Positions 19,006 to 47,984 of a DNA stretch of 64,000 nt are shown here, piece after piece. The translations under genes and the position numbers were made by a program. This DNA comes from Glycomyces luteolus (lineage in GTDB: Bacteria > Actinomycetota > Actinomycetes > Mycobacteriales > Micromonosporaceae). How positions within the stretch are numbered: the stretch's first letter is position 1; every line of letters starts with the position of its first letter. Where the stretch lies: contig NZ_JAPZVP010000016.1 of assembly GCF_027622875.1 (NCBI RefSeq), positions 1 through 64,000 of the forward strand, given 5' to 3'. Under the pieces are notes generated by a model that saw only the letters and a program-made list of their open reading frames with translations, made no database searches and had not been told where the DNA came from.

Positions 19006-19395
19006 ATGCGCTTGCGCACCGATGACGACATCTACCGTGCCCGGCTGCTGTACCTCGGCCCTCCCGGCTACACCCTCCCCGTCCACCTCCCCTACGGGCA
19101 GTACGGGGCCTTCGCCGCACTGCTGGCCCTGTTCATGCTGCTCCGCTGGGCGTTCACCGGCGACGTGGACCTCTTCCCCGCCATCGAGATCTCCCTCGCC
19201 CTCGTGGCCACTTCGCTGATCTTCCGCTACGTCGACGCCGACCGCCCCGCCACGACCGTGGTCCGCACACTGCTCACCGACTGGAAGCACACGCGAGACG
19301 CCGGGGACGAGAAGCGGATACCCGCGTTCACGACCCGTTCGATCCGCTTGCGGCCCACACTCGTGGACCCTGTCCGAACTGAGGAGCGCTTATGA
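19006..19395 (+). CDS. VirB3/PrgI-like membrane protein
   Basis: 129 residues from ATG 19006. Its two hydrophobic stretches (QYGAFAALLALFMLLRWAF; AIEISLALVATSLIFRYVD) are separated by a short acidic loop, followed by a cytosolic basic tail. The short N-terminal region, two helices and position immediately before the VirB4-like ATPase (4-bp overlap) match VirB3/PrgI proteins, which anchor VirB4 to the membrane. Sequence identity to any named family is weak. Confidence 0.55.
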   Translation: MRLRTDDDIYRARLLYLGPPGYTLPVHLPYGQYGAFAALLALFMLLRWAFTGDVDLFPAIEISLALVATSLIFRYVDADRPATTVVRTLLTDWKHTRDAGDEKRIPAFTTRSIRLRPTLVDPVRTEERL

Positions 19396-22300
19396 GCGGC
19401 GAGGATCGCCGACAGCCCGTCGCCAAGTTCTCCGCACCCCGGCCGCCCGCGCCCGTGCGCGACCGGGAGCGGCAGTCAGGCGACCTCGGCGACGACGCAA
19501 CCGCTCTGGCCGACGCGGTCTTCCGGGCGGAGCCCGTCAAGCGGCAGAGCGCCGAGCCCGCCAACGGGCACACCGCGGAGCCGGCGCAGGCGCACCGCAC
19601 GGCAAGCCCGCCCCTGCAGAGCCCCACCCAGCCGAGCCCGGCCGCCACGCCCTCCCCAGTCGACCCCGTCCGACACGCGTCGCCACCTGCGTCGATGACA
19701 CCGCCGTCGGCGAGTCGTCCACAGGGTTATCCCCAGGGTTATCCACAGAATCAGGGGAGTTATCCACAGGGGTATCCACAGCGTTACCCACAGGCGCCTA
19801 CCAGCGGAAATCCACAGGGTTATCCACAACACAACGGTAGTTATCCACAGCCGGGGCAGAGTTATCCACAGGCTGTTGACCAGCGGCGCGGGAATGTTTC
19901 CACAGGTCGTACAGCAGCTGAACAAAAGGGTGCACAAAGGGTGCCGGGCCAGGACCTCGTCCCGGTCAAGCAGGCCCGCGCCGAGGCCGCGGTGCTCGAC
20001 ACCACCGACCAGAAGCCGACCCGCGTCAAGCCGCTCCCCAGGGACAAGGAGAAGCAGCCGCTCCGCGAGCTCAGCCTCACCGAGATCGCCGGGCACGCCA
20101 CGTTCACGCCCGCCTCGGTCACCGCCTGGTACAAGCTGCCCGGGGTCCGCTGGTCCTTCCGGCCCGACCTCGAGCGCGAGGCGCTCATCGTCGCCATCGC
20201 CGAGCAGTTCGCCGGCCTTGCTGGCATGCGCGTCCACCTGCGCCGCACCACCCGCCCGTTCCCGGCCGACCAGTGGGCCCGCACTGTGGACCGCTACACC
20301 GCGCGCCCGCTGCGCACCGTCCCCGGCGGCACCAGCTGGGCCGACCACCTCGTGGCCGCCCAGCGCCACCTGCAGTCCCTCTCGCACGCCGAAGGCGAGA
20401 CGTTCCTCGGCATCACCTTCAGCCGCCGCGGCACCCTCGACCAGCTGGGCGAGAAGGTCGGCCGCATGTTCGGCCGCGGCACCAAGCTCTCCGAGCGCGA
20501 GAAGATCGAGAAGCGAAGCCTCCAGTTCGACGAAGTCCTCGGCTCCTTCGGCGTGCGCGCCCGCCGCGCCACCACCGCCGAGCTCGAATGGCTCGTCTAC
20601 CGCTCGGTCGCGCTCGGCATGTCGCCGCCGCGCCTGCTCTCGGGCTCGAACGGCGAGTGGGAGTCCGGCGACGTCCTGGCCCTCACCGAGTCGATCGAGC
20701 GCTACCGCAGCCCCTACGGCTCAACGGTGAAGCTCGTCAACCGCCTCACCGGCGAGGAGAAGCACACCGCGGTCCTCACCGTCGGCCGCATGGAGGAGCT
20801 CGAGATCCCCCAGCGCCACGAGCCGTGGCTGCACTTCCACGAGCGCTGCCCGTGGCCCGTCGAGATCTCCAGCCGCATCGACATCCTCGGCCCCGGCGAG
20901 GCCTTCCGCGACCTCGACCACCGCCTGCGCCTCATCCGCTCCCAGCAGCGCGACTACGACGAGCACGCGATGGACGCACCGCCGGAGCTCCAGCGCCTCG
21001 CCGAACGCGCCCTCGGCGTGGGCGACGAGATGACCACGGGCCTGCCCATCGACGCCGCGCGCGCCCACGGCTGGCACCGCATCGCGGTCACCGCCGACAC
21101 GAAGGAAGAGTGCCTGGAGCGCGCCCGCACGCTGATGCAGATGTACCAGCGGGACATGCGCATCAGCCTCCAGCACCCGAAGAACCAGGACTGGCTGGCC
21201 CGCGAGTTCATCCCGGGCGAGCCGGTCGCGCAGACCGGGTACGTGCGCCGCATGCCGGTGAAGCTCTTCGCCGCGGCCCTGCCGCAGGCGGCGTCCACAG
21301 TGGGCGACCAGCGGGGCGACCTCATCGGCCGCACCGCGGGCACCTGCCGCCGCCCGGTCTTCCTCGACATGCACTTCGCCACCGAGGTCCGCGAGAAGTC
21401 GGGCCTCTCGGTCTTCGTCGCCGAACCCGGCGGCGGCAAGTCCACGCTCATGGGAGCGATCGGCTACCTCGCGGCCCGCCGCGGCGTCCAGGTCACGCTC
21501 CTCGACCCTTCGGGCCCGCTCGCACGGCTGTGCGAGATGCCCGAGCTCAAGCCGTTCTCGCGGGTCCTCAACCTCACCGGCTCGGAGTACGGGACGCTCG
21601 CGCCGTACGCGCTCATCCCCTCCCCGAAGCGCGAGCACTACGAGGACTCCCCCGACGGCCAGCGCGAGTACGACATCGCGATCTCCAACGCCCGCAGCGA
21701 AAGGCGCATGCTCGTCCAGGACATCTGCGCGATGCTCCTGCCGCCGCAGATCCAGCGCGAGGCGAGCACGGCCCGGCTCCTGCGCCACGCGGCCCGGCAC
21801 GTGCCGGCCGAAGAGGACTCGACGATCGAGGACATCGTCGAGTCCCTCCAGGACGCCGAGGACCACGTCACCGGCGACGGCGCCGAACTCGCCGCGCTCC
21901 TGCTCGACACCGCGGAGATGCCGCTCGCGAAGCTGTTCTTCGGCAGCCCCGACAAGGGCGTGCTCGAGGACGACACCGCGCTCACCGTCATCACCATGTC
22001 CGGCCTGCGCCTGCCCGACCTCGGCATCGAGCGCGAGTACTGGAGCGCTGAAGAGGCCCTGGCCCTGCCGATGCTGCACACCGCGCACCGCCTGGCCGTG
22101 CGCCGCGCCTACGGCGGGGACATGCACCGCCGCAAGCTCGTCGGCCTCGACGAGGCGCACTTCATGGAGGGCTGGAAGTCCGGCCGCTCGTTCCTAGTGC
22201 GCCTGGCCCGCGACTCCCGCAAATGGAACCTCGCGGCGCTGGTGGCGAGCCAGAACCCGAAGGACATCCTCGGGCTCGACGTGCAGAACCTGGTCTCCAC

Positions 22301-22559
22301 GGTCTTCGTCGGCCGCATCGCCGAGGACCGCGAGGTGGCCGAGGAAGCGCTGAAGCTGCTGCGCGTACCCACGGGCGTCGGCTACGAGAGCGTCCTCGCC
22401 TCGCTCTCCGAAGTGGACGCTGCGGAGACCCAGAAGCTCCCCTACCGCGAGTTCGTGATGCGCGACGTCGACGGACGCGTCCAACGCATCCGCGCCGACT
22501 TCAGCTGGGTCCGCAATCTGCTCGAGTACCTGAACACCACGCCCGGGGAGGCAAAGTGA
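19392..22559 (+). CDS. VirB4-like secretion ATPase with Pro/Gln-rich N-terminus
   Basis: 1055 residues from ATG 19392. Residues 1-200 are disordered and include YPQ repeats at about 113-158, encoded by the DnaA-box cluster described separately. The VirB4-type N-domain follows. The ATPase core has Walker A EPGGGKST at about residues 678-685 and Walker B KLVGLDEAHF at about 914-923, then an arginine-rich LVRLARDSRKWNLAALVASQNP segment with a conserved Q. These match the VirB4/TraC family that powers type IV secretion. The usual VirB4 length is about 800 residues; the extra length is the N-terminal linker. It overlaps the genes on both sides. Confidence 0.8.
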   Translation: MSGEDRRQPVAKFSAPRPPAPVRDRERQSGDLGDDATALADAVFRAEPVKRQSAEPANGHTAEPAQAHRTASPPLQSPTQPSPAATPSPVDPVRHASPPASMTPPSASRPQGYPQGYPQNQGSYPQGYPQRYPQAPTSGNPQGYPQHNGSYPQPGQSYPQAVDQRRGNVSTGRTAAEQKGAQRVPGQDLVPVKQARAEAAVLDTTDQKPTRVKPLPRDKEKQPLRELSLTEIAGHATFTPASVTAWYKLPGVRWSFRPDLEREALIVAIAEQFAGLAGMRVHLRRTTRPFPADQWARTVDRYTARPLRTVPGGTSWADHLVAAQRHLQSLSHAEGETFLGITFSRRGTLDQLGEKVGRMFGRGTKLSEREKIEKRSLQFDEVLGSFGVRARRATTAELEWLVYRSVALGMSPPRLLSGSNGEWESGDVLALTESIERYRSPYGSTVKLVNRLTGEEKHTAVLTVGRMEELEIPQRHEPWLHFHERCPWPVEISSRIDILGPGEAFRDLDHRLRLIRSQQRDYDEHAMDAPPELQRLAERALGVGDEMTTGLPIDAARAHGWHRIAVTADTKEECLERARTLMQMYQRDMRISLQHPKNQDWLAREFIPGEPVAQTGYVRRMPVKLFAAALPQAASTVGDQRGDLIGRTAGTCRRPVFLDMHFATEVREKSGLSVFVAEPGGGKSTLMGAIGYLAARRGVQVTLLDPSGPLARLCEMPELKPFSRVLNLTGSEYGTLAPYALIPSPKREHYEDSPDGQREYDIAISNARSERRMLVQDICAMLLPPQIQREASTARLLRHAARHVPAEEDSTIEDIVESLQDAEDHVTGDGAELAALLLDTAEMPLAKLFFGSPDKGVLEDDTALTVITMSGLRLPDLGIEREYWSAEEALALPMLHTAHRLAVRRAYGGDMHRRKLVGLDEAHFMEGWKSGRSFLVRLARDSRKWNLAALVASQNPKDILGLDVQNLVSTVFVGRIAEDREVAEEALKLLRVPTGVGYESVLASLSEVDAAETQKLPYREFVMRDVDGRVQRIRADFSWVRNLLEYLNTTPGEAK
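19715..19870 (+). repeat. DnaA-box cluster inside the VirB4-like coding sequence
   Basis: Five exact TTATCCACA boxes occur at 19739, 19760, 19820, 19841 and 19862, all in the same orientation and spaced 21, 60, 21 and 21 bp. One-mismatch boxes lie at 19715 (TCGTCCACA), 19727 (TTATCCCCA), 19772 (GTATCCACA) and 19784 (TTACCCACA). They are read as Tyr-Pro-Gln with TAT CCA CAG, codons that a high-GC genome normally avoids in favour of TAC CCG CAG. This suggests selection on the DNA sequence as well as on the protein. Confidence 0.75.
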
Positions 22560-47880: not shown

Positions 47881-47933
47881 ATATCCACAGGCCCCGACCA
47901 GCCGCCCTGTCCCACCTGGTCGAGTTATCCACA
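47881..47933 (+). promoter_or_regulatory. DnaA-box pair in a promoter region
   Basis: A perfect TTATCCACA lies at 47925-47933 and a one-mismatch ATATCCACA at 47881-47889, in the same orientation. They are in the non-coding stretch between the terminator and the gene at 47985. They may be DnaA sites acting on that promoter. Confidence 0.4.
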
Positions 47934-47984
47934 GGCGGAAAAGAAGTTGTTGACGCTCCGAAGCGGGTCGGCGACAGTTGGTAC

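Follow-up and report, generated by a model that had tools for sequence, protein, structure and literature searches.

The array and its host gene

The window, i.e., the whole stretch of 64,000 nucleotides that was analysed, has its closest relative within Glycomyces (97% identity) and carries on its forward strand a gene for an ATPase that is here termed VirB4-like. This is a loose label: the protein exceeds the Pfam AAA_10 cut-off (78.3 bits versus 27.5), whereas its match to NCBIfam TcpF is weak and remains below the cut-off (79.6 bits versus 1100), and a PDB sequence search with the ATPase returned no match. The gene stands among genes that overlap one another, and its start is placed upstream of the array by a 4-bp overlap with the preceding gene; a later gene encodes an M23 peptidase. 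The array of DnaA boxes lies approximately 320–510 bp inside the host gene, and its elements are as follows:

19006..19395, + strand: upstream gene (open reading frame), overlapping the start of the host gene by 4 bp
19392..22559, + strand: host gene (open reading frame), VirB4-like ATPase of 1055 aa, with the array in its P/Q/S-rich N-terminal linker
19715..19904, + strand: whole array of DnaA boxes (five perfect, three one-mismatch, three two-mismatch), each on the + strand
19715..19723, + strand: two-mismatch box TCGTCCACA
19727..19735, + strand: one-mismatch box TTATCCCCA
19739..19747, + strand: perfect box 1, read YPQ; GTTATCCACA invariant in 17/17 aligned sequences
19760..19768, + strand: perfect box 2, 21 bp downstream of box 1 and read YPQ; unchanged in 17/17
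19772..19780, + strand: one-mismatch box GTATCCACA
19784..19792, + strand: one-mismatch box TTACCCACA
19808..19816, + strand: two-mismatch box AAATCCACA; AAT CCA CAG kept in 16–17 of 17 sequences per codon
19820..19828, + strand: perfect box 3, with the codons TAT CCA CAA; conservation weakest among the five (Tyr in 14/17)
19841..19849, + strand: perfect box 4, read YPQ; invariant in 17/17
19862..19870, + strand: perfect box 5, 21 bp downstream of box 4 and read YPQ; unchanged in 17/17
19896..19904, + strand: two-mismatch box GTTTCCACA in another frame, read Val-Ser-Thr; kept in 14–15 of 17 sequences per codon

The five perfect copies of TTATCCACA occupy 132 bp in one orientation, exactly where the initial annotation had located them, while a sixth copy stands elsewhere in the window at 47925; the expectation from shuffled sequence is 0.06 copies per window. 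The same annotation counted four one-mismatch boxes, a figure that has to be replaced by three one-mismatch and three two-mismatch boxes, and its reading of every perfect box as TAT CCA CAG is right for four of them, the third ending in CAA. Two of the weaker boxes are preceded by ACCAGCGG (19800–19816 and 19882–19904), with ACC AGC invariant in 17/17 sequences at the first copy.

Codon usage within the array

The codons of the boxes run against the bias of the host, as had been claimed from the window. In an alignment of the window with 16 Glycomyces loci (L030–L045), the proportion of codons ending in G or C (GC3) is 0.106 for the boxes (51 of 483), 0.642 for the other codons of the array region (504 of 785) and 0.956 for the remainder of the gene (15854 of 16592). 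Outside the array region, the 17 pooled sequences use TAT for only 2% of 302 Tyr codons and CCA for 3.6% of 1180 Pro codons, whereas every Tyr codon of the five perfect boxes is TAT (in 17, 17, 14, 17, and 17 sequences, respectively). With these outside-region frequencies, and assuming independence, five TAT together with five CCA codons have a probability of about 10^-15.7. Moreover, the third position never varies in 17 of the 20 codons of the five boxes, whereas this is so for 34 of 76 codons in the region and for 299 of 979 in other parts. A profile of synonymous change in 25-codon steps displays no clear dip at the array, and resampling of Y, P, and Q columns gave 397 of 100,000 draws with synonymous change at or below that observed, a weaker result than codon identity since Y and Q columns hardly vary anywhere.

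Two simpler accounts of the anomaly were considered and rejected. A mere AT-rich island is at odds with the GC3 of 0.642 between the boxes against 0.106 in box codons, and a rare-codon signal with the same value retained by the intervening codons. Just past the array (approximately 19923–19937), Gln residues 178 and 182 are encoded by CAA wherever Gln is kept (14 and 13 sequences), a codon that makes up 2.8% elsewhere; constraint may reach beyond the boxes.

Conservation in Glycomyces and sister genera

A search of 22 Glycomyces genomes with the protein core only, i.e., with no array peptide in the query, recovered the host gene in 21, the remaining genome giving no match. The array was present in all 20 genomes where it was readable, with four to six boxes and 21-bp first and last pairs. 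Box spacings are 21, 60, 21, 21 in 14 of these genomes and 21, 81, 21 in four, while 21, 24, 36, 21, 21 and 21, 24, 57, 21 occur in one genome each. The corresponding gene start in sister genera contains 5, 5, 7, 5, 5, 3, and 6 perfect boxes (L164 to L170) at other spacings, the last of these loci lying on a separate contig that we infer to be the start of the host gene. In L166, from a related genus, two of the seven boxes are reversed and are read as His-Pro-Val-Asp-Asn. The 17 aligned sequences, the 20 genomes, and the sister-genus loci overlap and are not independent, and the pairs L047/L168 and L048/L167 each seem to represent a single contig.

A first locus search, covering the best 80 of 252 matches and using six query peptides of which one came from the array, provides the complementary comparison. 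Its 61 orthologous loci classed as box-free contain six YPQ in all, none of them coded as a box (TAC CCC CAG in three cases, and TAC CCG CAG, TAC CCG CAA, and TAT CCG CAG in one each), the absence of boxes applying to the loci other than the 13 with less than 600 bp before the match. Among the 61, L051 has one TTGTCCACA, and L050 seems to continue the gene that starts at L170, whose six boxes are on another contig.

Therefore, given the reversed boxes read PVDN, the box read VST, and the 61 box-free loci with almost no YPQ, the peptide repeat follows the boxes. Selection on YPQ at the protein level was rejected on the same three observations. As judged by sequence, the array is a real and conserved set of DnaA boxes in coding DNA and no repeat artefact, and the view that evolution has preserved DNA sites rather than the encoded protein repeat is well supported. 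This agrees with the initial annotation, which had suggested selection on the DNA: codons contradict the bias in all 20 readable Glycomyces genomes, and boxes persist where strand and peptide change. It had also named an outcome that would have made the boxes a by-product of repeat expansion, namely relatives encoding the same YPQ repeats as TAC CCG CAG; instead, box-free orthologues hold almost no YPQ.

Boxes, oriC, and DnaA in the same genome

The genome of this strain (5.74 Mb, 49 contigs) contains 28 copies of TTATCCACA (16 + 12) compared with 5 of a reversed control pattern, an excess that is paralleled by 22 copies of TTGTCCACA against 5 for its control. The oriC region lies beside dnaA, on a contig other than that of the array, and comprises perfect and variant boxes in like orientation at steps of 11–12 or 20 bp. 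The perfect boxes of oriC are identical to the TTATCCACA boxes of the array, and GTTTCCACA, the 9-mer of the box at 19896, is found there as well. The DnaA protein of the strain contains near its end the sequence GRDHTTV, which we take to be the box-reading signature of DnaA. A 40-bp GC scan found no AT-rich unwinding element beside the array boxes like that of oriC: the lowest value at the array is 0.425 (within the boxes) versus 0.30 in the AT-rich tract at oriC.

Other box-containing sites were also observed. In the genome of this strain, six boxes (four TTGTCCACA and two TTATCCACA) lie within 75 bp upstream of a gene that by eye resembles dnaB (G000:C15:46379-46453, L020), and G046 has a triple box in a similar place (L139). 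Single TTATCCACA sites share a promoter-like context, AGTTATCCACAGGC(G/A)GAAA(A)CTT..TGTTG (window 47881–47960; L001, L016, L018, L019, L023, L026, L027), and the copy in the window precedes an open reading frame resembling, by eye, DUF559/AbiEi-type genes.

Position relative to dnaA and a second host gene

The array lies near dnaA (186–502 kb) in all six relatives where this can be measured. The distance from the box-bearing gene amounts to 248 kb in G013 (7.0% of the chromosome), 259 kb in G004 (4.6%), 186 kb in G014 (4.7%), and 502 kb in G046 (7.3%), as well as 231 and 208 kb on contigs shared with dnaA in G011 and G083. For the strain of the window, where the array and dnaA are on different contigs, nearness to oriC is what we infer. 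Besides the cluster of its VirB4-like gene, G004 has two more clusters of three boxes, at 292 and 115 kb from dnaA (G004:C1:2724582 and 2901416).

Across 101 genomes of the family, 29 hold three TTATCCACA at short spacing. With clusters at oriC set aside (one each in the groups of G014 and G097), all 14 rows of placeable clusters are within 13.2% of the chromosome from dnaA; outside these rows, clusters on contigs shared with dnaA gave four distances that are shorter and one that is longer (G008, 781 kb, approximately 14.5% of a rounded genome size). Many triple clusters are unplaced, being on a contig other than that of dnaA (G000, G006, G039, G040, G049, G061, G069, G077, G066:C61, and G097:C75), and G054, G073, and G089 were left out of the placement. 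The corresponding figure of 9e-5 is a rough guide, which treats seven host loci as independent and uniformly placed, uses seven rounded chromosome lengths, and leaves out G008. Not all multi-box loci of the family are origin-proximal: in the four genomes with complete lists, single boxes are widespread and two-box loci occur 1.7 Mb from dnaA (G084 and G067). Four genomes of one genus (G047, G067, G084, and G098) have common multi-box loci at approximately 130, 290, 600, and 910 kb from dnaA, and the second of these precedes a gene that looks clpC-like by eye, as inspected in G047 and G084.

In other genera, the VirB4 gene was present in all 11 genomes searched and free of boxes in all 11, at 228–288 kb from dnaA in eight of the nine measured and at 554 kb in G037. 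Three genomes of two other genera (G009, G080, and G039) carry a cluster in the N-terminal tail of a Peptidase_S13 (D-Ala-D-Ala carboxypeptidase) gene, the Pfam assignment having been run on the G080 and G009 copies, and this cluster is again read YPQ, through TTATCCACAG. It is located 26.9 kb (G009), 25.7 kb (G080), and 47 kb (G039) from the box-free VirB4 gene. Of the four Peptidase_S13 loci in the genus of G080, the analysis covered three, the fourth (G094) beginning at a contig end; the G061 gene contains two perfect and three one-mismatch boxes. The best Peptidase_S13 homologue in the genome of the window (37% identity) has no boxes. In six other genomes, intergenic clusters lie beside a ThiF-like gene (by eye), at 0.78 to 1.11 Mb. 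Tentatively, and with slightly less than even confidence, the array may be maintained by its place near oriC and not by its gene: lineages would write it into an intergenic space of the neighbourhood or into the disordered tail of a neighbouring protein able to take such codons, be it the D-Ala-D-Ala carboxypeptidase or the VirB4-like ATPase, and the YPQ repeats of these tails would then be a by-product of DnaA control.

Possible roles of the array

Three of the conceivable explanations have little to recommend them. It is very improbable, and was already disfavoured, that the boxes simply result from a rare-codon stretch or from a YPQ repeat of the protein and that the DNA has no role: all five perfect boxes share one frame and spell YPQ, and aligned Q columns within boxes vary slightly more than elsewhere, but reversed boxes read PVDN, one box reads VST, the codons between boxes retain a GC3 of 0.642, and 61 orthologues lack both the boxes and almost all YPQ. 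An origin, or origin remnant, of an integrated element is hardly credible. The steps between boxes resemble those of oriC and the gene lies in a secretion-type operon, and the initial annotation had named an origin-like site among the possible roles. This idea is not supported: the gene occurs in 21 of 22 Glycomyces genomes and in every one of the 11 genomes searched in other genera (for eight of nine at a similar distance from dnaA), and the lowest 40-bp GC is 0.425, in the boxes themselves, against 0.30 in the AT-rich tract of oriC. Recognition of TTATCCACA by another DNA-binding protein would suit the promoter-like context shared by further sites in the genome, yet it too is improbable, given a 9-mer identical to the oriC boxes beside dnaA that is also a listed DnaA box of several bacteria (PMC4285127).

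Two further alternatives assume that DnaA itself binds the array, and both are unlikely, though less so than the preceding three. DnaA bound within the coding region might regulate the secretion operon, or stand in it as a roadblock, and tie its expression to the cell cycle. The location of the array some 320–510 bp into a gene of an overlapping set, and its persistence in this same gene across Glycomyces and sister genera, would suit such control; the same gene is, however, box-free in 11 of 11 genomes of other genera, where a like array is found in a different gene nearby, and box spacing and number differ between genera. Alternatively, the array might alter the nucleotide state of DnaA beyond merely holding it, through ATP hydrolysis as at datA or reactivation as at DARS. 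Its box number resembles the two consensus and four one-misfit boxes given for datA in a passage of PMC5835720, and the conserved 21-bp pairs suggest an ordered complex, but an exact complex would not obviously allow the differences in box order between genera, datA requires IHF according to PMC5295017, and datA is a non-coding locus whereas this array lies within an open reading frame.

We consider it moderately probable that the array is an origin-proximal DnaA titration site in coding DNA that restrains initiation. Among the three roles proposed in the initial annotation (titration, replication-timed operon control, and an element origin), titration appears to be the best-fitting, since the array is origin-proximal in the six measurable relatives. 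Binding of DnaA to the array and an effect of titration on initiation are both predicted by this reading. The N-terminal linker of the ATPase would tolerate many residues, so that boxes could be accommodated there, mostly as Tyr-Pro-Gln codons, and DnaA would bind these head-to-tail boxes. As the host gene would be copied soon after initiation, the boxes would double early and sequester free DnaA, which would help keep oriC from firing too early or more than once. Against the titration reading stand the two-box loci 1.7 Mb from dnaA in G084 and G067, and the constancy of the host gene in Glycomyces and sister genera, which would equally suit a function in the operon. Moreover, although TTATCCACA is listed as the DnaA box of four other bacteria, the high-affinity box of M. 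tuberculosis and S. coelicolor is TTGTCCACA and not TTATCCACA (PMC4285127), which likewise counts against titration. The array offers a clean test of DnaA titration in actinobacteria, since its boxes can be removed by synonymous recoding with the protein unchanged. If the titration reading is true, the protein repeat would owe its existence to what is bound by its DNA, and caution would be needed when reading disordered tails in genomes.

Comparison with known DnaA-box clusters

The array groups several DnaA boxes outside oriC and is close to oriC by its distance from dnaA in six relatives; it is thus a variant of the origin-proximal DnaA-box clusters, which restrain initiation elsewhere according to passages of PMC4585315 and PMC5295017. 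The nearest parallel is the S. coelicolor cluster (Smulczyk-Krawczyszyn et al. 2006, cited in PMC4585315), likewise a group of clustered boxes outside but near oriC in an actinobacterium, which is said in that source to repress untimely initiation; the Glycomyces array differs in lying in coding sequence and in being mostly spelled as a peptide repeat. The DBC of B. subtilis (Okumura et al. 2012, cited in PMC5295017 and PMC4585315) similarly comprises several origin-proximal clusters. Removal of six of them causes early initiation, with a strong phenotype only when all six are gone, and PMC5295017 calls their role not significant compared with E. coli. Unlike the DBC, the Glycomyces array is in-gene and conserved at the codon level. 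As in E. coli datA, which is described as having a fairly constant distance from oriC (PMC4585315), several DnaA boxes are combined, but datA is non-coding and IHF-dependent in the accounts of PMC12371093 and PMC5295017, whereas the Glycomyces array is inside its host open reading frame. Finally, boxes accumulate towards oriC in E. coli and Salmonella, an arrangement whose early duplication is regarded as favourable for titration in passages of PMC12371093; there, many scattered boxes are enriched, while the Glycomyces array is dense and conserved. Within the open-access literature, the novelty would lie in an array that is spelled out as a peptide repeat and that different genes of a single neighbourhood apparently host.
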